NCBI GenBank assembly: GCA_938003515.1
Contig: CALKYL010000278.1
Coordinates: forward strand, 1 to 9,169
Direction: 5' to 3'
DNA from: an uncultured bacterium
Lineage (GTDB): Bacteria; Planctomycetota; UBA1135; UBA2386
Length of the DNA: 9,169 nt
Shown: piece after piece, positions 1,795 to 9,169 of the stretch
How the letters are laid out: each line of letters opens with the position of its first letter
How positions within the stretch are numbered: the first letter of the stretch is position 1
The notes under the pieces: model-generated
What the model was told of the DNA's origin: nothing
Database searches by the model: none
Seen by the model: only the letters and a program-made list of their open reading frames with translations
Translations under genes and position numbers: made by a program

Positions 1795-2730
1795 ATGTTG
1801 TCCACCGCCATCGTGCTCGGCCCGCAGCGGCGCGACCCGTCCGTGTGCGACGCGGTCGACGCGCTCGTGCCGAACCGGCGCGAGCCCGTCGCCGTCGTGA
1901 CGGCGGGGTGGGAGGAGCGCGAGGACGAGGACGAGGAGCTGCGCGAGCACTGCAACCGGAAGGTCGTCAACCTCGCGGTCTGGCAGCGGGTCGAGCGCGT
2001 CTTCGAGCGCGACCCGGAGCTGCTGCAGGCGATGCGCGAACGGCACGCGACGCTCCGCAAGGTGCAGGAGCTCTACCGGCTGCGGCTGGCCGGCCTGATG
2101 GAGCCGACGCGCGAGCTGATGCGCCGGGGCGACGACGACCCGCTGGTGCGCGCCGAGCAGGAGGACGCCTGGGTGCTGGTGCGCGGCCTCGACGACCAGC
2201 ACACGGCGCGCGTCGCGCAGATCCACCTGGAGTTCGACGAACGGGTGCGCCCGGCCGAGCGCGACGCGGTCCTCGAGGAGCGGCGCGCGCTGCGGCGCGA
2301 ACTGGAGGGTGCGTCGTGCCTGTTGGTCGCCGGCGGCCACATCGGCGTGCTGCTGCACCGCCTGCGGCTGTTCGACGTGCTCGCGTCGTGGAGCGACCGG
2401 CCGGTCGTCGCGTGGTCGGCCGGGGCGATGGCGCTCAGCGAACGCATCGTGCTGTTCCACGACGCGCCGCCCCAGGGCAGCTCGTTCGCCGAGGTCATGG
2501 AGGCGGGCCTCGGCCTGCTGCCGGGCTTCGTCGCGCTGCCGCACGCGCGCCACCGACTACAGACCGACGATCCGCTGCGCGTGCAGATGCTGACCCGCCG
2601 CTTCGGCCCGGCGCTCTGCGCGCTCCTGGACCCGGGCTCGCGCTTCGACTGGCGCGACGGCCGCTGGCAGCCCCGCAGGGGCTCGCGCCAGCTGGACCGC
2701 GACGGCCTGGTGGTGGAGGCGGCGCCGTGA
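1795..2730 (+). CDS. Peptidase S51 (dipeptidase E/cyanophycinase)-fold protein with helical insertion
   Basis: This is a 311-residue cytosolic protein with the class I glutamine-amidotransferase-like fold of peptidase S51. Visible landmarks are an N-terminal strand (STAIVLGPQ), a second strand PVAVVTAGW (about 31-39), LLVAGGHIGVLLHRLR (about 176-191, matching the family's GGN/GGG turn), the nucleophile elbow AWSAGAM with Ser208, then GLGLLPG (238-244) and LPHARH with His250 as the likely catalytic His. Between the second strand and AGGH lie roughly 140 residues, much more than usual. They are rich in E, R, D and L and look helical or coiled-coil. Family members hydrolyse alpha-aspartyl dipeptides or cyanophycin; the substrate here is unknown and a non-peptidase amidase role is possible. 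ATG 1795 is the first start giving the N-terminal strand; only a weak, distant AAGG precedes it. Its stop overlaps the next gene's GTG. Confidence 0.72.
   Translation: MLSTAIVLGPQRRDPSVCDAVDALVPNRREPVAVVTAGWEEREDEDEELREHCNRKVVNLAVWQRVERVFERDPELLQAMRERHATLRKVQELYRLRLAGLMEPTRELMRRGDDDPLVRAEQEDAWVLVRGLDDQHTARVAQIHLEFDERVRPAERDAVLEERRALRRELEGASCLLVAGGHIGVLLHRLRLFDVLASWSDRPVVAWSAGAMALSERIVLFHDAPPQGSSFAEVMEAGLGLLPGFVALPHARHRLQTDDPLRVQMLTRRFGPALCALLDPGSRFDWRDGRWQPRRGSRQLDRDGLVVEAAP
2715..2719 (+). promoter_or_regulatory. Shine-Dalgarno site GGAGG for the Fes-like esterase gene
   Basis: GGAGG sits seven bases before GTG 2727 but thirteen before ATG 2733. This spacing favours the GTG, which also overlaps the upstream stop in a GTGA junction. 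Confidence 0.65.
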
Positions 2731-3860
2731 CGATGCTCGCGCGGCTCGAGACGGCCCTGACCGGCGGCGCCGTCGCCGTCGACCGGCTCCTGCGCACGGT
2801 CGAGTTCCCCTATGTCGAGGGGCGCAACGTGACCTTCGTCTACCGCGGCGAGGCGCAGGAGGTCACGCTGCAGCACTGGATCCACGGCCTGCCCGGCTCG
2901 CTGCCGTTCCGGCGGCTGCGCCACAGCGACCTCTGGGTGCTGCAGATCGACCTGCCGCCCGGGTCGCGCATGGAGTACAAGCTCGGCATCGCGCTGTACG
3001 CCCGCGGCACGCTGATCCGGGCCCCGCTCAACAAGCACCCCGCGCGCGATCCGTTCGGCGCCAACTCCGTCGTGTACGGCGAGGGCTACGAGCCGCCGGA
3101 CTGGACCGTCGAGGACCCCGAGGCGCGTCACGGCACGGTCGAGGAGCGGCACGTCGACAGCCCGGTGTTCGGCGACTGGCGGCCGATCAAGGTCTACCGG
3201 CCGGCGCGCTTCCGCGAGACGCGGCGCTACCCGTTGCTGATCGTGCACGACGGCTTCGACTACCTGGGCTTCGCGCACCTGAAGGAGACGCTCGACAACC
3301 TGATCCACCGGCTCGAGATCCCGCCGCTGATCGCGATCCTGACCCAGTCCCCGGACCGCATGAACGAGTACGCGGCCGATCCGCGCCACGCGGACTTCGT
3401 CGTCAAGGACCTCGTGCCGCAGATGGAGGACCTCCTGCCGCTCGTGCGCGAACCGTCGGCGCGCGCGCTGATGGGCGCGAGCTTCGGCGCGGTCGCGTCG
3501 CTCGCGACCGCGTGGCGGCACCCGGGCTTCTTCGGCAAGCTGCTGCTGCAGTCGGGCTCGTTCGTGTTCACCGAGATCGGCGAGCACGACCGCGGCCCGG
3601 TGTTCGACCCGGTCGTGAAGTTCGTCAACGAGTTCCGCAAGGCGCCGGGCCGGCCCGCCGAGAGCGTGTTCGTCTCGTGCGGCGTCTACGAGTCGCTGAT
3701 CTACTACAACCGCTCGCTCGTGCCGCTCCTGCAGGAGACCGGCATGCAGGTGCGCTTCCGCGAGGCCAACGACGGCCACAACTGGGAGAACTGGCGCGAC
3801 CGCCTGCGGGAGGGGCTTTCCTTCTTGTTCCCGGGGCCGCTGTGGCTCGTCTATGAATAG
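2727..3860 (+). CDS. Fes-like esterase (N-terminal Ig-like domain plus esterase D-type alpha/beta hydrolase)
   Basis: This 377-residue serine esterase has the architecture of enterochelin esterases (Fes/IroD). An N-terminal beta-sandwich at about residues 24-120 contains RMEYKLGIALY and the linker-proximal HPARDPFGANSVVYG. The alpha/beta-hydrolase domain (esterase D, PF00756-like) runs from about 145 to the end. Counting from ATG 2733, the nucleophile elbow is MGASFGA with Ser250. The acid is probably Glu320 in SCGVYES, and the catalytic His is His349 in DGHNWENWR. No signal peptide is visible, so it is likely cytosolic. Fes enzymes cleave ester bonds of ferric siderophore trilactones, but no siderophore synthesis or uptake gene is in the window, so the substrate is open. 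It overlaps the S51-fold gene by four bases (GTGA), implying coupled expression. The family call is strong and the specific substrate unknown. Confidence 0.83.
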   Translation: MTMLARLETALTGGAVAVDRLLRTVEFPYVEGRNVTFVYRGEAQEVTLQHWIHGLPGSLPFRRLRHSDLWVLQIDLPPGSRMEYKLGIALYARGTLIRAPLNKHPARDPFGANSVVYGEGYEPPDWTVEDPEARHGTVEERHVDSPVFGDWRPIKVYRPARFRETRRYPLLIVHDGFDYLGFAHLKETLDNLIHRLEIPPLIAILTQSPDRMNEYAADPRHADFVVKDLVPQMEDLLPLVREPSARALMGASFGAVASLATAWRHPGFFGKLLLQSGSFVFTEIGEHDRGPVFDPVVKFVNEFRKAPGRPAESVFVSCGVYESLIYYNRSLVPLLQETGMQVRFREANDGHNWENWRDRLREGLSFLFPGPLWLVYE

Positions 3861-3900
3861 CGGGCCTCCGCGCTAACGTCTCCGGTCCGCCCTCGTGCCC

Positions 3901-5172
3901 ATGCCCGCCGTCACCCGCCACATCGGACTCTCCCTCGGCGCCGACATCTGCTGGCCGTTCGCCTTCGAGCAGATCCTCGCCGACAGCAAGCTCGAGCTGA
4001 AGCTCGGCAAGGACACCGTGCGCTTCGCGTGCGAGCGCGTCGGGCTGCAGCCGTTCCGGCTCGAGCCCGGGTGCAAGTACGACCTGGTCGTCGACCGCCT
4101 GACGCACTGGTTCACGCTGCAGCGCGAGTGGATCAAGAAGTGCGTCCTGATGGACGACCTGTACGTCTACAACAACCCGTGGTCGGTGCAAAGCTACGAG
4201 AAGCACTCGAGCTACGCGGCGATGGCCGCGCTCGGCATGCCGATCCCGACGACGGCGATGCTGCCGCAGAAGTCGTACGTGCCCAAGGCCGACCTCGACT
4301 ACACGCTGCACGCCTACGCGAAGCTGTTCGACCTGAAGGCGATCGGCGACGAGCTCGGCTACCCGCAGTTCCTCAAGCCGTTCGACGGCGGCGGCTGGCG
4401 CGGCGTGACCAAGGTCGACGACGGCGAGCAGCTGGTCGCGGCCTACGACAAGAGCGGCACCGACCTGATGCACCTGCAGCGCGCGGTGCACGGCTTCGAC
4501 CTGTTCGTGCGCGCGGTCGGCATCGGCCCGCAGGTGCGCGTCATCAAGTACGACGCGTCGCAGCCGCTGCACGACCGCTACCGGGCCGACCGCGACTTCT
4601 GTTCGGCCGAGGAGCTCCAGCTCGTCGCGGACACGTGCCTGACGATCAACAGCTTCTTCGGCTGGGACTTCAACAGCGTCGAGGCGCTGCGCGCCGACGG
4701 CGTCTTCTACCCGATCGACTACGCGAACCCCTGCCCCGACAACCAGGTCAACTCGATCCACTACCACTGGCCGTGGTACGTGCTCAGCAACCTGAAGTGG
4801 GCGCTGTTCGTCGCCGCGACGAAGCGGCCGATGCGGAAGACGCTCGACTTCGAGCCCTACTACGAGGTCGCGCGGCAGAAGCTCGACTACCGCGAGAAGC
4901 TGCGCCGCTACGCGAAGATCGCGCGCGACCGGCTGCAGGCCGAGCGCTTCGAGGCGTTCTGCCAGGAGCACCTCGGTCCGCTCGAGGAGACCGCGTTCCG
5001 CTGGTTCCGCAGCGAGCGGTGCCTCGCCGCGATCCGCAAGAAGGTCGAGAACGTCTACCCCGCGCACGAGATCGACGAGTTCACCGGCCGCTTCCACGCG
5101 CTCGTGTTGCGCTCGGTCGACGACCTCGAGCAGAAGGCCACCCCGTCCACGAGCCCGCGAGGCCGTTCGTGA
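3901..5172 (+). CDS. ATP-grasp (RimK/glutathione synthetase-like) carboxylate-amine ligase with helical C-terminal extension
   Basis: This 423-residue cytosolic ligase is expected to activate a carboxylate as an acyl-phosphate and join it to an amine. Residues about 1-90 form a pre-ATP-grasp region. NNPWSVQSYEKHSSY (from Asn91, with Lys101) and GMPIPTT match the family's entry to the ATP-binding module. FLKPFDGGGWRG carries the nucleotide-binding Lys159 and glycine-rich loop. SVEAL (Glu261) and PIDYANPCPD (Asp273, Asn276) occupy the metal-binding positions, and an unusual HYHWPWY follows at 287-293. From about 300 onward some 120 residues are helical and charged, beyond the normal end of the fold. 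ATG 3901 is chosen; an in-frame GTG at 3895 is an alternative, and neither has a clear Shine-Dalgarno. A TANNNT hexamer (TAACGT, 3874-3879) in the 40-base gap could be a -10 element, but without a recognisable -35. Its stop overlaps the downstream esterase start. Substrates are unknown. Confidence 0.85.
   Translation: MPAVTRHIGLSLGADICWPFAFEQILADSKLELKLGKDTVRFACERVGLQPFRLEPGCKYDLVVDRLTHWFTLQREWIKKCVLMDDLYVYNNPWSVQSYEKHSSYAAMAALGMPIPTTAMLPQKSYVPKADLDYTLHAYAKLFDLKAIGDELGYPQFLKPFDGGGWRGVTKVDDGEQLVAAYDKSGTDLMHLQRAVHGFDLFVRAVGIGPQVRVIKYDASQPLHDRYRADRDFCSAEELQLVADTCLTINSFFGWDFNSVEALRADGVFYPIDYANPCPDNQVNSIHYHWPWYVLSNLKWALFVAATKRPMRKTLDFEPYYEVARQKLDYREKLRRYAKIARDRLQAERFEAFCQEHLGPLEETAFRWFRSERCLAAIRKKVENVYPAHEIDEFTGRFHALVLRSVDDLEQKATPSTSPRGRS
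5159..5162 (+). promoter_or_regulatory. Shine-Dalgarno-like GAGG for the second esterase gene
   Basis: GAGG, within the last codons of the ATP-grasp gene, lies six bases before GTG 5169 and supports that start in a frame that is open far upstream. Confidence 0.5.
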
Positions 5173-5918
5173 GCAAGCACAAGATCAGCTGGAGGTCGCC
5201 GTCGCTCGGCGGCCGCGAGATCACCTTCGTCCGCTACGGCGTGTCCGGCACGCCCCTGCTGCTGTTCCCGACCGCGGGCGGCGACGCCGAGGAGCCCGAG
5301 CGCTTCCATCTGATCTCGGCGGTCGGCGCGTTCCTCGAGGACCTGCGGCTGAAGGTCTACTGCGTCGACTCGGTCGCCGGGCAGGCGTGGCTGCAGGAGT
5401 GCCGCACGCTCGAGCAGGCCGCCGCCGTGCAGCAGCGCTTCGACGCGTGCATCTCGCGCGAGGTCGTGCCGGCGATCCACCGCGACTGCGGCGGCGACCC
5501 GGGTCCGATCTGGACCGCCGGCTCGTCGATCGGCGCGTTCAACGCGCTCGCCGCGGTCTGCCGGCACCCGGACCAGTTCGGCACGGCGATCTGCATGAGC
5601 GGCACCTACAACATGAACCGCTTCCTCGACGGGCAGATCAACCGCGACTACCACGAGAGCTCGCCGCTCGACTTCGTGCCGAACCTCGGCGGCAGGCACC
5701 TCGAGCTGCTCAAGCAGCGCTTCGTGCTGCTCGCGCACGGCACCGGCGACTACGAGGACCCGCAGCAGAGCTGGAACGTCGAGCGCGTGCTCGGGCCGAA
5801 GGGCGTGCCGAACCGCGTCGACGAGTGGGGCAAGGAGTGGCGCCACGACTGGGTCACCTGGCGCAAGATGCTGCCGCAGTTCCTCGGCGAGTTCCTGCCG
5901 CCGCGGCGCGCCGGCTGA
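5169..5918 (+). CDS. Short esterase of the alpha/beta-hydrolase fold (COG4947-like)
   Basis: A 249-residue serine hydrolase without the N-terminal accessory domain of the upstream Fes-like protein. The early strand region reads REITFVRYG and PLLLFPTAGG. The nucleophile elbow is AGSSIGAFNAL with Ser120, the likely acid is Asp194 in GTGDYED, and the catalytic His is His226 in RHDWVTWRKMLPQFL. The tail continues FLGEFLPP, a common ending in this family. There is no signal peptide or membrane segment, so it is probably cytosolic. GTG 5169 is chosen because it overlaps the ATP-grasp stop (GTGA) and has GAGG upstream, so the two proteins are probably made in a coupled way and may act on the same molecule. 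It resembles uncharacterised esterases of the COG4947 type; that family name is from memory and the substrate is not known. Confidence 0.8.
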   Translation: MSKHKISWRSPSLGGREITFVRYGVSGTPLLLFPTAGGDAEEPERFHLISAVGAFLEDLRLKVYCVDSVAGQAWLQECRTLEQAAAVQQRFDACISREVVPAIHRDCGGDPGPIWTAGSSIGAFNALAAVCRHPDQFGTAICMSGTYNMNRFLDGQINRDYHESSPLDFVPNLGGRHLELLKQRFVLLAHGTGDYEDPQQSWNVERVLGPKGVPNRVDEWGKEWRHDWVTWRKMLPQFLGEFLPPRRAG

Positions 5919-5923
5919 GCGCG

Positions 5924-7195
5924 GTGGCCCGATCGAACGAGCCGTCCGGGGCGAGCGCGCCGACCGGATCGCCGGGTCCCGTCGGGTCGGACGCGAAGGC
6001 CCGGCCGCGCCGCCGCCGGCGCTGGGCGTTCGTGCTCGCGGCCTTGATGGTCGGCACGATCGTCGCGCTCGTGCTCGTCGAGCTCGCGTTCCGCGCCTTC
6101 TGGACGCTGCCGCCGTGGTTCGCCGAGTTCCAGCAGGCCGGCATGTACGCGGCCGCTGCCGACGGCGCGCCGGCGCTGCGGCCGGGCTACCGCGGCACGC
6201 TCCGGGTCGGCGACGCCTACGCGACCGACGTGCGCATCAACGCGCTCGGCATGCGCGGCCCCGAGATCGGCGCGCGGCGGCCCGGCGAGGAGCGGGTGCT
6301 GATGGTCGGCGACTCGCTGGTGTTCGGCTACGGCGTCGAGGACGAGCACGCGCTGCCGGCGCGCGTCGAGGCCGAGCTCGCGGCCCGGGGCGTCGTCGCG
6401 ACCGTCGGCAACGGCGGCGTGCCCGGCTACGGCAGCCGCCACTACGTCGAGCACCTGCGGCGCCTCGACGAGCGCTTCGGCGCCGACCTGCTGGTGTGCT
6501 GCGGCTTCCTCGGCAACGACGCGGTCGACGACACGGTGCCCAACCGAACGGTCTACGCGGGGCTGATGCTGCAGGAGCCGATGGCGAGCCTGGTGTTCAC
6601 CTCGTGGCGCGCGCGGCTCGCGCTGCGTTCGCGCGCGGCGCTCTGGGTCGAAGCGTGGATCCTCGAGCACCGGCCGAGCTGGTCGCCGCTCGCGACGTGG
6701 TCACCGGATCCGGAGACGATGACGCGCGCGGTCGGCTTGCCGCCCGAGACGCCGCAGAACCAGCGGCACGCCGGGCTGTTCCTCGACGTGCGCGACGAAC
6801 GGCACACGTGGCAGCCGGGCGCGGAGCCGGTGCTGCCGCGCCTGCTCGGCTACCTGCGCGCGTCGCTGCAGCGGGCCGCCGACACCGCCGGCCGGCGGCC
6901 GCTGGTGTTCGTGATCCTGCCGACGAAGTGGCAGGTCGACGAGTCGCTGCGCACGGCCCGGCTGCGCGAGCTCGGGCTCGACCCGAAGGACTACGAACGC
7001 GGCCTGGCGCAGGCGCGCTGGCGGGCGGTGGCCGAGGGCCTCGGCATCCCGACCCTCGACGCCACCCCGATCCTGGCGGCCGCAAAGGAGCCGGCGGACG
7101 AGCTGTTCATCGCCGACGGCGGGCACTTCAACGTGCGCGGCAACGAGATCGTCGCGGCGTGGCTGGCGGGGGAGCTGGCGGAACGGCTGCGCTAG
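5924..7195 (+). CDS. Membrane-anchored SGNH/GDSL-family hydrolase or acyltransferase
   Basis: A 423-residue protein with a short, low-complexity N-terminus (rich in S, P, G and A), an arginine cluster at about 29-33 and one hydrophobic segment at about 34-57. By the positive-inside rule this places the catalytic domain outside the cytoplasmic membrane. SGNH blocks are visible in order: MVGDSLVFGYG with Ser131 (block I), NGGVPGYGS (block II), GFLGND with Asn198 (block III) and DGGHFNVRG with Asp398 and His401 (block V). SGNH proteins remove or transfer O-acyl groups on polysaccharides, peptidoglycan or lipids; an AlgX/AlgJ-like transferase role is possible but unproven. GTG 5924 is five bases after the previous stop and has no good Shine-Dalgarno. 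ATG 6047 would cut into the membrane helix and is unlikely. The close spacing suggests one transcript with the esterase/ATP-grasp genes, although the extracytoplasmic location differs from theirs. Confidence 0.82.
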   Translation: MARSNEPSGASAPTGSPGPVGSDAKARPRRRRRWAFVLAALMVGTIVALVLVELAFRAFWTLPPWFAEFQQAGMYAAAADGAPALRPGYRGTLRVGDAYATDVRINALGMRGPEIGARRPGEERVLMVGDSLVFGYGVEDEHALPARVEAELAARGVVATVGNGGVPGYGSRHYVEHLRRLDERFGADLLVCCGFLGNDAVDDTVPNRTVYAGLMLQEPMASLVFTSWRARLALRSRAALWVEAWILEHRPSWSPLATWSPDPETMTRAVGLPPETPQNQRHAGLFLDVRDERHTWQPGAEPVLPRLLGYLRASLQRAADTAGRRPLVFVILPTKWQVDESLRTARLRELGLDPKDYERGLAQARWRAVAEGLGIPTLDATPILAAAKEPADELFIADGGHFNVRGNEIVAAWLAGELAERLR

Positions 7196-7323: not shown

Positions 7324-8565
7324 TCAGCGCCAGGGATGGCGCTGGGCGACGACCACGATGCCGCTGTGCGAAACCGTGAAGCGCTTCAGGTCCTGCTCGC
7401 GGTCGTAGCCGATGACCGTGCCGGGCGGCACGTCGTTCCACTTGTCGAGGATCACGCGCCGCAGCTTGCAGCCGCGGCCGATGCGCGCGCCGCGCATGAC
7501 GATGCACTCGTCGAGCGTCGCGTGCTCGTCGACGTAGACGAGGTTCGAGAGGATCGAACGGCGCACCTTGCCGCCGGACACCACCACGCCCGGCGCGAGC
7601 AGCGAGTCGACGACCTCGGCGCGGCGGCCGTCGCCCTCTTCGTTGAAGACCGTCTTCGCCGGCGGGTCGTTGTGCCACAGCGTGTACGTGGGCCAGTCCT
7701 GCCGGTACAGGTTGAGCTGGGGCTTCACGCTGATCAGGTCCATGTGCGCGTCGAAGTAGGCCTCGATCGTGCCGACGTCGCGCCAGTACGGCCGCTCGTC
7801 CTCGCCCTCGAGCCCGCAGAACGCGTGCGCGTAGACCGGCACCTCGCCGATCATGCGCGGGATCACGTGGTGGCCGAAGTCGCCGCCCTGGCCGTCGGGC
7901 AGGCGGCCGTCGGCCTGCAGCCGCCGGACCAGCTCCTCGGTCTCGAACACGTAGATGCCCATCGACGCGAGGCAGTAGCCCGGCTCGCCCGGGATCTCCG
8001 GCGCGTTCTGCTTCGGCTTCTCGACGAAGCCGGTGATCCGGTTGTTCTCGTCGACCTGCAGGATGCCGAACGCGGGCGCCTCGTGGACCGGGATCCTGAC
8101 CGCGCCGATCGTCAGCGCGGCCTCGTGCTCGACGTGCTCGCGCAGCATGTCCCTGTAGTCCATCTGGTAGATGTGGTCCCCGGACAGGATCACGACGTTG
8201 GACGGCCGCCAGTCGAGGATCGTGTCGAGGTTGTGGAAGATCGCGTCGGACGTGCCGCGATACCACTTGCCCACCGACACGTGGTGCGGCGGGCTGCAGG
8301 TGATCCACTGCTCGAGGCGGCGCGGCAGGAAGTTCCAGCCGAAGCGGATGTGCTCCTCGAGCGAGCGCGCCTGGTACTGCGTCAAGAGGTGGATGCGGCG
8401 GAAGCCCGAGTGGATGCAGTTGCTGAGCGTGAAGTCGATGATCCGGTAGCTGCCGCCGAACGGCACCGCCGGCTTCGCGCGGTGCTGCGTCAGCGGCATC
8501 AGCCGGCTGCCGGCGCCGCCGGCGAGGACGAAGACGAGCGTGTTGCGGAGGTCGAGCGGCACCAT
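7324..8565 (-). CDS. glgC: Glucose-1-phosphate adenylyltransferase (ADP-glucose pyrophosphorylase)
   Basis: The enzyme makes ADP-glucose and pyrophosphate from ATP and glucose-1-phosphate, the committed step of bacterial glycogen synthesis in the cytosol. The protein has 413 residues, close to the usual ~420. Landmarks are GGAGSRL (16-22) and RAKPAVPFGG (29-38, activator/substrate loop), WYRGT (101-105), SGDHIYQMDY (128-137, catalytic Asp130), FVEKP (180-184, glucose-1-phosphate-binding Lys183) and YWRDVGTIEAYFDAHMDL. These are followed by a left-handed beta-helix domain with repeats such as ILSNLVYVDEHATLDECIV. The ATG at 8565 is chosen because the conserved N-terminal strand (NTLVFVLAGG) starts directly after it; the frame stays open further upstream but that stretch has no family resemblance. 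No strong Shine-Dalgarno is visible. The gene is divergent from a glycogen debranching gene. Members of this family are allosterically controlled by sugar phosphates; the effector here cannot be read from sequence. Confidence 0.97.
   Translation of the reverse strand: MVPLDLRNTLVFVLAGGAGSRLMPLTQHRAKPAVPFGGSYRIIDFTLSNCIHSGFRRIHLLTQYQARSLEEHIRFGWNFLPRRLEQWITCSPPHHVSVGKWYRGTSDAIFHNLDTILDWRPSNVVILSGDHIYQMDYRDMLREHVEHEAALTIGAVRIPVHEAPAFGILQVDENNRITGFVEKPKQNAPEIPGEPGYCLASMGIYVFETEELVRRLQADGRLPDGQGGDFGHHVIPRMIGEVPVYAHAFCGLEGEDERPYWRDVGTIEAYFDAHMDLISVKPQLNLYRQDWPTYTLWHNDPPAKTVFNEEGDGRRAEVVDSLLAPGVVVSGGKVRRSILSNLVYVDEHATLDECIVMRGARIGRGCKLRRVILDKWNDVPPGTVIGYDREQDLKRFTVSHSGIVVVAQRHPWR
7325..7344. terminator. 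Weak hairpin at the convergent glgC 3' end
   Basis: A perfect 7-bp inverted repeat (CAGCGCC at 7325-7331, GGCGCTG at 7338-7344) with a 6-base loop overlaps the glgC stop codon, between convergent genes. Neither strand shows a following T-run, so termination is uncertain. Apart from this the 7196-7323 gap holds only a 5-bp hairpin with a CGAA loop at 7295-7308 and no gene I can support. Confidence 0.2.
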
Positions 8566-8757
8566 TCGGACTCGGCTGAGGACCGGGTGAGGGACAGCCC
8601 TAGGATGGCGCTTCGTGTGCGGTGACGACAGGGCCGGCTCACGTTTCCTTGTCGGGGAGCAACGTTGATACCGGATGCGCGCGACGTAGGCTCCGGCCGA
8701 GCGATCTTGCGAGACGATCCCGAATCCGCCCGTTCCGCCGCGACCCGAGCCAGCGCG
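8566..8757. promoter_or_regulatory. Divergent glgC / debranching-enzyme intergenic region
   Basis: These 192 bases separate the divergent starts of glgC and the debranching gene and must hold both promoters. Toward the debranching gene a good candidate is seen (separate entry). Toward glgC I see no convincing -35/-10 pair; the best hexamer, CATCCT on the minus strand (8602-8607), lacks a recognisable -35. A palindromic CCTAGG is at 8599-8604. No operator with clear dyad symmetry was found. Confidence 0.5.
8665..8692 (+). promoter_or_regulatory. Candidate sigma-70-type promoter for the debranching gene
   Basis: TTGATA at 8665-8670 (five of six matches to TTGACA) is followed after 16 bases by TAGGCT at 8687-8692 (the T, A and final T of the -10 box). 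Transcription would start near 8699, leaving about 60 untranslated bases before GTG 8758. This argues that the TTG at 8665 is part of the promoter, not a start codon. Confidence 0.42.
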
Positions 8758-9102
8758 GTGACGAACGATCCGTCCGCGAACGCCGTCGCCGGTGACGCCG
8801 AGTGGCTGCTGACCGACGGCCGCGGCGGCTACGCCTGCGGCACCGCGAGCGACCTGGCGACGCGCCGCTACCACGGCCTGTGGGTCGTGCGGCCGGCCGG
8901 CACCGCGCGGCGGCGCATGGCCGTCGCGGGGCTCGACGAGCGCGTCGTGCTGGCCGGCCAGCAGCCGGAGCAGGGCACCGGTCTGTTGCACGCCCACTGG
9001 CGCGGCCAGGACCGGCCGTGGGCGCCGCGCGTCGCCGTGCGTTCCGCTTGCAGGGTAGGGCCTCCGCGTGCCGCTGTGCCGCGGCGCTCCGGCGATGGGT
9101 GA
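8758..9102 (+). CDS. Glycogen debranching enzyme, N-terminal fragment (frame broken near window end)
   Basis: The fragment matches the start of the bacterial/archaeal-type glycogen debranching enzyme (GDE_N domain, then a GH133-like catalytic domain), which trims branch points during glycogen breakdown. Counting from GTG 8758, EWLLTDGRGGYACGT (15-29) and TRRYHGL (35-41) are the family signature, followed by LDERVVL. Only about 114 residues are read before a stop at 9100-9102, against roughly 650-750 in full enzymes. Coding character is lost from about 9040: third positions are no longer G/C-rich and neither other frame continues the domain. GTG 8758 is preferred over TTG 8665, because the extra 31 residues lack family resemblance and overlap a candidate promoter. 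The truncation is more likely an assembly-end error than a natural pseudogene, but sequence alone cannot decide. It is divergent from glgC, as expected for a glycogen locus. Confidence 0.75.
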   Translation: MTNDPSANAVAGDAEWLLTDGRGGYACGTASDLATRRYHGLWVVRPAGTARRRMAVAGLDERVVLAGQQPEQGTGLLHAHWRGQDRPWAPRVAVRSACRVGPPRAAVPRRSGDG

Positions 9103-9169
9103 TCCGCGGTTGTTTTGCGCTTCGTCCCTGGCGTGTGGCTCGTCGCGATTTTTTTTTTTTTCTGGTAAA
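9103..9169. other. Non-coding tail with T13 homopolymer, probable assembly edge
   Basis: The last 67 bases have no reading frame resembling the debranching enzyme and are visibly less GC-rich than the rest. They contain 13 consecutive T (9149-9161) followed by CTGGTAAA. In a genome this GC-rich this looks like low-quality sequence at a contig end. It could be mistaken for a terminator, but no stable stem directly precedes the T-run. Confidence 0.6.

Follow-up and report, generated by a model that had tools for sequence, protein, structure and literature searches.

Gene content of the four-gene cassette

The stretch of DNA analyzed here, a contig of 9,169 nucleotides (nt) from an uncultured planctomycete (CALKYL010000278.1), is referred to as the window, and all positions given are window positions. 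On its plus strand lie four adjacent genes that encode an S51-like protein, two esterases, and an ATP-grasp ligase with the fold of RimK, and these genes belong to a larger, widespread set of enzymes for making amide bonds and cutting esters, one that has apparently not been described so far. The S51-like gene (1795..2730) starts with ATG, and its stop is overlapped by 4 nt by the start of esterase 1 (2727..3860), a GTG within "gtga." The ligase gene (3901..5172) starts with ATG at 3901, with a GTG at 3895 as an alternative start, and shares a further 4-nt overlap with the gene for esterase 2 (5169..5918), which also starts with GTG. The original prediction, made from the DNA sequence without database searches, had assigned these four genes as an S51-fold protein, a Fes-like esterase, a RimK-like ligase, and a second esterase arranged in two overlapping pairs; the open frames, the Pfam and NCBIfam scans, and a structure model of the ligase agree with it on both counts.

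At the sequence level, the ligase gave weak matches only, to D-Ala ligase and carboxylase models of Pfam and NCBIfam; the best NCBIfam match was VanG (18 bits), and the curated RimK model was absent among the matches listed (25 of 27). An AlphaFold2 model (predicted local distance difference test score, 88.4) was placed by Foldseek closest to RimK in the Protein Data Bank (5zk6; E = 4.1e-9), with a template modeling score of 0.69 by target length and 0.50 by query length, as expected for a fold of the RimK/D-Ala ligase type. RimK is the ribosomal protein S6 glutamate ligase. Five residues (Lys124, Lys159, Glu261, Asp273, and Asn276) are present in 81 of 81 aligned members, and the last four are assigned putative ATP/Mg roles by analogy. 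It is this fold and these putative ATP/Mg residues that the window-type ligase has in common with RimK and the D-Ala-D-Ala ligases. It differs from them in that the D-Ala ligase C-terminal model, which matches 26 of 51 members at E ≤ 0.01, does not match the window protein, whose C-terminal part is predicted by the structure model to be helical. Homologs of the ligase at E ≤ 0.001 made up 4897 of 7999 scored candidates. In a phylogenetic tree, the window ligase groups with those of loci L006, L007, L015, and L017 (support, 100/99), within Planctomycetota and bacteria of no stated phylum. Carriage of the cassette on plasmids was considered and set aside, as the ligase had no match in a plasmid collection at E ≤ 1e-5.

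Both esterases score above the cut-off of PF00756 (esterase 2, a small alpha/beta-hydrolase, with 32.6 bits against 22). Esterase 1 combines an E-set domain with an alpha/beta-hydrolase domain, the Enterochelin_N plus esterase layout expected of Fes, the enterobactin esterase, although the Enterochelin_N match of the window protein is weak and below cut-off. Its best structural matches are Fes and CE1 feruloyl esterases bearing CBM48, with which it also shares a conserved Ser/acid/His set, and Fes is the nearer of the two. Identity is about 20%, however, and the NCBIfam enterochelin esterase equivalog gives 88.4 bits, far under its cut-off of 222. We also considered a glucan-binding CBM48 domain on esterase 1 and rejected it: none of 48 members matches CBM48, whereas 35 of 48 match Enterochelin_N at E ≤ 0.01. 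Since CBM48 matches are absent in these members and Fes is nearer, we do not claim glucan binding by esterase 1. The putative catalytic residues of esterase 1 (Ser252, Glu322, and His351) are invariant; in esterase 2, Ser120 and Glu196 are found in 70 of 70 members and His226 in 67 of 70, the other three being gaps. Thus, as judged from alignments, the putative active-site residues of the ligase and both esterases are intact.

The cassette is a tight same-strand unit across phyla

Loci were gathered with the ligase profile alone from genome contigs of 84,980 species, which yielded 429 relatives; locus counts refer to the best 80 of these 429 loci. Neighbors were detected with single query sequences, which divergent copies may escape, and because contigs often end inside the cluster, absence of a gene within a locus is weak evidence. 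By record title, the loci come mainly from Planctomycetota, Acidobacteriota, and Myxococcota, and also from Alphaproteobacteria, Acidimicrobiia, and Eisenbacteria. With the window proteins as queries, esterase 1 was found in 67 of 80 loci and esterase 2 in 69. All four families occur together in 52 of 80 loci, and 45 have the exact order S51, esterase 1, ligase, esterase 2 on one strand. Esterase 2 stands at the front in 5 loci, and another 7 have esterase 1, ligase, and esterase 2 without the S51-like gene. S51-like protein and esterase 1 are both present in 59 loci, and in every case (59/59) they share a strand and lie no more than 200 nt apart. The same spacing limit holds for esterase 1 and the ligase in 55 of 67 loci and for the ligase and esterase 2 in 59 of 69; median gaps of same-strand pairs over the 80 loci were 7.5 to 56 nt. 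Since the loci were fetched by the ligase alone, the constant adjacency of S51-like protein and esterase 1 indicates that the four-gene arrangement is not due to chance. We conclude that esterase 1, the RimK-fold ligase, and esterase 2, often with the S51-like protein, form a tight same-strand unit across phyla. The idea that the four families co-occur in one order in distant phyla thus holds, and the opposite outcome, in which they would rarely be neighbors in related genomes, was not what we found.

The S51-like protein is not a constant member. The window protein scores 23.5 bits with the Pfam Peptidase_S51 model, just under the cut-off of 23.9, and 20 of 22 aligned members match this model at E ≤ 0.01. 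It has an AGGH loop, a WSAGA motif with Ser208, and His250, the last two being putative catalytic residues by analogy. The gene is present in 59 of 80 loci and, with the window protein as the query, was not found in the 8 alphaproteobacterial and acidimicrobial loci. Among 60 locus members, Ser208 is kept in 51 and His250 in 35; 25 have thus lost the histidine, 9 of these lacking the serine too, while the window copy keeps both. With 119 close database homologs added, nearly all of which keep both residues, the counts are 170 of 179 for Ser208 and 154 of 179 for His250. In five loci titled Pirellulaceae/Planctomycetaceae (L028, L048, L056, L062, and L080), esterase 2 lies ahead of an S51-like gene whose product is without the putative catalytic histidine. 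Because this histidine is lost in 25 of 60 members, peptidase activity would not be a general core of the cassette, and the S51-like protein is an accessory member. The original prediction had included peptide-bond cleavage by the S51 protein in its argument, which peptidase activity should not carry given the loss of His (25/60) and Ser (9/60) and the eight loci in which it was not found.

A larger set with further amide ligases and glycogen genes

Recurring neighbors, identified by clustering of neighboring frames together with Pfam and NCBIfam scans, included three further ATP-grasp families (termed AGa, AGb, and AGc; 35, 23, and 23 of 80 loci), the glycogen synthase GlgA (29/80), and a GCS2 ligase with CBS domains (21/80). 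Proteins resembling N-formylglutamate amidohydrolase (10/80) and AspA/AstE (6/80) also recurred, as did other glycogen genes: glgC (19/80), a debranching enzyme, GH57, a GT3-type glycogen synthase, a GH13 protein termed glgX, and one neighbor that we take, from resemblance, to be malQ. At least one glycogen gene lies nearby in 43 of 80 loci. The fullest arrangement, GlgA, AGa, S51, esterase 1, ligase, esterase 2, and GCS2-CBS in one run on one strand, was seen in 11 of 80 loci, all labeled Myxococcota; in the alphaproteobacterial locus L034, AGa follows esterase 2. Amide ligases and GlgA as recurring neighbors further set esterase 1 apart from Fes and the CE1 enzymes. In locus L026, a GCS2-type ligase fused to two CBS domains (12010-13926) lies beside esterase 2, possibly a nucleotide-sensing amide ligase. 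Two loci (L063, 18100-21192; L006, 17186-20000) have a single frame in which a GT3-type glycogen synthase is fused to DUF3417 and to the first part of a phosphorylase.

AGa is related in sequence to L-amino acid ligases (4wd3, E = 4.9e-12; 3vot, E = 2.4e-11) and to BacD. L-amino acid ligases are dipeptide-forming enzymes. AGa differs from them in its setting, as it occurs with paralogs, the RimK-fold ligase, two esterases, and GlgA. Against cyanophycin synthetase models, AGa, AGb, and AGc reach about 35 to 42 bits, with cut-offs of 850 and more.

The ligase and AGa co-occur almost one to one in three phyla, even where they are unlinked, and AGb and AGc are often present too. Among 199 Planctomycetota genomes, full-length ligase is present in 28 and AGa in 28, with 27 in common, at a ligase cut-off of E ≤ 1e-140 that was set after a gap in the match list was apparent. 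Of 112 Myxococcota genomes, 36 have the ligase and 36 have AGa (35 in common), and the same 5 of 119 Acidobacteriota genomes have both. Distant ligase homologs (E = 1e-102 to 6e-34) were present in 25 more Planctomycetota genomes, and AGa was found in one of these alone, G055, whose ligase is a contig-end fragment and was counted as negative. These searches scored part of each genome's first-look candidates (for AGa, at most 9, 15, or 16), and some absences may be false. AGa-type matches were found in 20 of 20 genomes of loci L001 to L020. A test of 37 genomes, those of L018 and of other loci, gave an AGa-type match at E ≤ 1e-30 in 29; these include G241, with matches at the AGb/AGc level only, G235, with a fragment, and G018, already counted among the genomes of L001 to L020. 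The eight genomes without a match are, by locus title, alphaproteobacterial (three), acidimicrobial (one), acidobacterial (two), and from Pirellulaceae (two).

In relatives of the window, AGa, GlgA, AGc, and AGb stand together at a second locus (7 of 7 hand-picked regions), and by comparison with these relatives, the window's own genome presumably has a second locus with the same four genes. Among 30 AGa loci from the genomes of L001 to L020, GlgA adjoins AGa within a short flank in 17, and in each of these AGa is of the higher-scoring type. A second, lower-scoring AGa type (45 to 49% identity), beside which the short flank showed no GlgA, is also carried by most genomes of the window's clade (G001 to G020). 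The proposal of a ligase/esterase cassette for a peptide-like or ester-linked metabolite remains the best frame as far as a metabolic cassette is concerned, but the four genes on which it was built are only part of the system, as the second locus in relatives indicates.

Cassette-linked GlgA forms its own group

The GlgA of locus L074 passes the glycogen synthase model TIGR02095 (535 bits; cut-off, 328), and four GT5 motifs are kept in 36, 33, 34, and 38 of 38 cassette GlgA rows. In a tree of 85 rows, in which one gene appears twice (as L074 and L187), a branch supported at 100/100 sets apart 39 cassette-linked GlgA rows from Myxococcota, Acidobacteriota, and Planctomycetota plus 3 unlinked ones. 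The 43 rows on the other side comprise 36 from cassette-free genomes and, from cassette-bearing Myxococcota, 5 unlinked and 2 sole copies. Three of the genomes with an outside-group unlinked GlgA (G269, G311, and G321) have another copy adjoining AGa; for the other two (G315 and G344), a linked copy was not observed. Cassette GlgA is thus like ordinary GT5 GlgA in model score and largely kept motifs but differs in that the linked copies form a separate group and at least three genomes hold an outside copy too. In Planctomycetota, at least 21 of 28 AGa-positive genomes (counted by hand) have GlgA no farther than 10 kb from AGa. We conclude that the GlgA of the full cassette version belongs to a subfamily whose members, in three phyla, group by their linkage to the cassette.

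Other genes of the window

Downstream of the cassette, the window itself holds genes of alpha-glucan metabolism, the clearest clue to the pathway and one that the original prediction overlooked. glgC (7324..8565, minus strand), 1.4 kb downstream, encodes ADP-glucose pyrophosphorylase and scores 482 bits with the NCBIfam model for glucose-1-phosphate adenylyltransferase (cut-off, 470). At 2.8 kb downstream, a gene for a glycogen debranching enzyme begins (8698..9102, plus strand; GDE_N, 58.6 bits; cut-off, 27), which the contig end truncates. GlgC provides an alpha-glucan context outside the core of the cassette. Homology of the debranching enzyme ends near base 9048, and tblastn to relatives reaches residue 117 at most; the remainder (9049-9169) ends in a T run, these last ~120 bases resembling an assembly artifact at a contig end. 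Read from left to right, the window contains a purine nucleoside phosphorylase gene (its end only), a GNAT-like gene, the four cassette genes, an SGNH hydrolase gene, glgC, and the debranching enzyme start. The first two genes (2-1740) overlap each other by 4 nt, and the GNAT-like one has a weak Pfam match; matches to this pair occur in 10 of 80 loci, every one among L002 to L017, close kin of the window. The SGNH/GDSL hydrolase (5924-7195) has a hydrophobic N-terminal stretch and is found in 10 of 80 loci, all among L001 to L019.

A possible pathway and its alternatives

The closest characterized relatives (Fes, RimK, and cyanophycinase) assign no substrate. From gene composition, linkage, co-occurrence, and active sites, which are observed, we infer the following chemistry. 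AGa, AGb, and AGc, with the GCS2-type ligase where present, would join amino acids or similar units through amide bonds into a short chain, to which the RimK-fold ligase would add one or more further units. An ester would then link the amide group to a hydroxyl of glucose or glucan or close a depsipeptide, with esterases 1 and 2 forming or releasing this ester by cutting or transfer. Where active, the S51-like, N-formylglutamate-amidohydrolase-like, and AspA-like hydrolases would trim the amide once it is set free. Such a pathway would yield an aminoacyl or peptidyl alpha-glucan or a glucan-linked peptide reserve. Several amide ligases, two serine esterases with intact putative active sites, and a cassette GlgA fit an amide group that is ester-linked to glucose or glucan, or to a product formed alongside glucan. 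That the cassette is a conserved nonribosomal amide/ester pathway whose full form works on or with alpha-glucan from its own glycogen synthase is our preferred reading, which we put forward tentatively, at somewhat less than an even chance. Its more specific form is rather doubtful: in at least three phyla, glycogen would be decorated with amino acids or short nonribosomal peptides in ester linkage, through the dedicated GlgA, the ligases, and the esterase pair, the latter serving attachment and release.

Several observations weigh against a central place for glucan. The alphaproteobacterial loci L035 and L077, the latter from the isolate Tropicimonas sp. IMCC6043, show only a GCS2-type ligase beside esterase 1, ligase, and esterase 2, and the N-domain sequence of esterase 1 gives no sign of glucan binding. 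AGa and GlgA lie within 200 nt in the same direction in only 14 of 25 loci that have both. An L074-type GlgA (at least 49% identity) was found in only 7 of 23 cassette genomes searched, most of which had been selected for a locus without a visible GlgA, and eight alphaproteobacterial and acidimicrobial genomes gave GlgA matches of 37 to 43% identity or none. In the tree, two cassette-bearing Myxococcota (G228 and G276) show a single GlgA that falls outside the cassette group, and the three unlinked GlgAs sit inside it. Because genomes share ancestry, Fisher values for co-occurrence are not probabilities. The presence of any GT5 synthase was tried as a marker of the cassette and separates weakly (27 of 28 Planctomycetota with the ligase have one, as do 130 of 171 without it); the GlgA argument therefore rests on linkage and the tree. 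As only 7 of 23 genomes have a close L074-type GlgA, reduced versions of the cassette work without it, and in light of versions such as L077 and L035, glucan may be a later coupling and not the core substrate. The reduced alphaproteobacterial version suggests that amide and ester chemistry is the core and that glucan is a partner in the full version.

These reduced versions, which keep ligases and esterases without a cassette GlgA, would also be expected if the product were a soluble small metabolite and glycogen itself stayed unmodified; this could be a peptide or depsipeptide that the cassette GlgA might glucosylate and that would serve, for example, as an osmolyte or signal. The resemblance of AGa to dipeptide-forming L-amino acid ligases points the same way. 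However, the GlgA that groups with the cassette in three phyla passes the glycogen synthase model with its motifs largely kept, and in 11 loci it is within the same gene run; we regard a soluble product as unlikely, though with an appreciable chance of being correct. A nitrogen-rich peptide reserve that works like cyanophycin, its glycogen neighbors reflecting joint regulation of carbon and nitrogen reserves, comes near the idea of a storage polymer in the original prediction. It would account for the many amide ligases, for the S51-, N-formylglutamate-amidohydrolase-, and AspA-like proteins, and for the weak cyanophycin synthetase matches of AGa, AGb, and AGc. Yet no cyanophycin synthetase (CphA) was found among the window proteins, all scanned neighbors fall far below its cut-off, mere coregulation does not predict a cassette-linked GlgA group, and the two conserved esterases would be left unexplained. 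As the whole story, cyanophycin-like storage is further weakened by the loss of the putative S51 histidine in 25 of 60 members, and we consider it improbable.

The nearest fold of the ligase, that of an enzyme which adds glutamate to ribosomal protein S6, raises the question of whether it adds amino acids to a protein, such as GlgA or a primer protein, from which the other enzymes remove them. The ligase resembles RimK only distantly (14% identity), D-Ala ligases share this resemblance, and two esterases are, on general grounds, ill suited to isopeptide removal, making such protein modification very unlikely. Even less credit can be given to a pathway for a siderophore or catecholate ester in which release is Fes-like: esterase 1 is structurally closest to Fes, but its 88 bits are far from the enterochelin esterase cut-off, and the recurring partners are amide ligases and GlgA. 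No siderophore synthesis gene was found in the window by Pfam and NCBIfam scans, the other loci not having been screened for siderophore or TonB genes, and we rejected this reading.

Relation to previous work and implications

Iyer, Aravind, and colleagues reportedly predicted multi-ligase amidoligase operons with peptidases and hydrolases by comparative genomics in 2009, and that work might hold an earlier prediction of the present system, which is similar in combining several ligases with peptidases and hydrolases. Full-text literature searches returned no description of the cassette, with PMC4431377 and PMC11046441 covered by term search only. In the latter, a 2024 review of prokaryotic alpha-glucan enzymes, neither "ATP-grasp" nor "esterase" occurs in the first 300,000 of 445,374 characters.

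Carriers of the cassette may attach small peptide-like groups to a storage sugar or to a sugar-bearing metabolite. Bacterial glycogen metabolism is regarded as well mapped, and amide ligases and esterases that travel with a private glycogen synthase in several phyla point to an unknown glucan- or glucose-linked metabolite. If glycogen is indeed decorated in the way outlined above, the product would be a mixed carbon-nitrogen reserve or a granule coat, and to our knowledge, no reserve or coat of this kind is known from bacteria.

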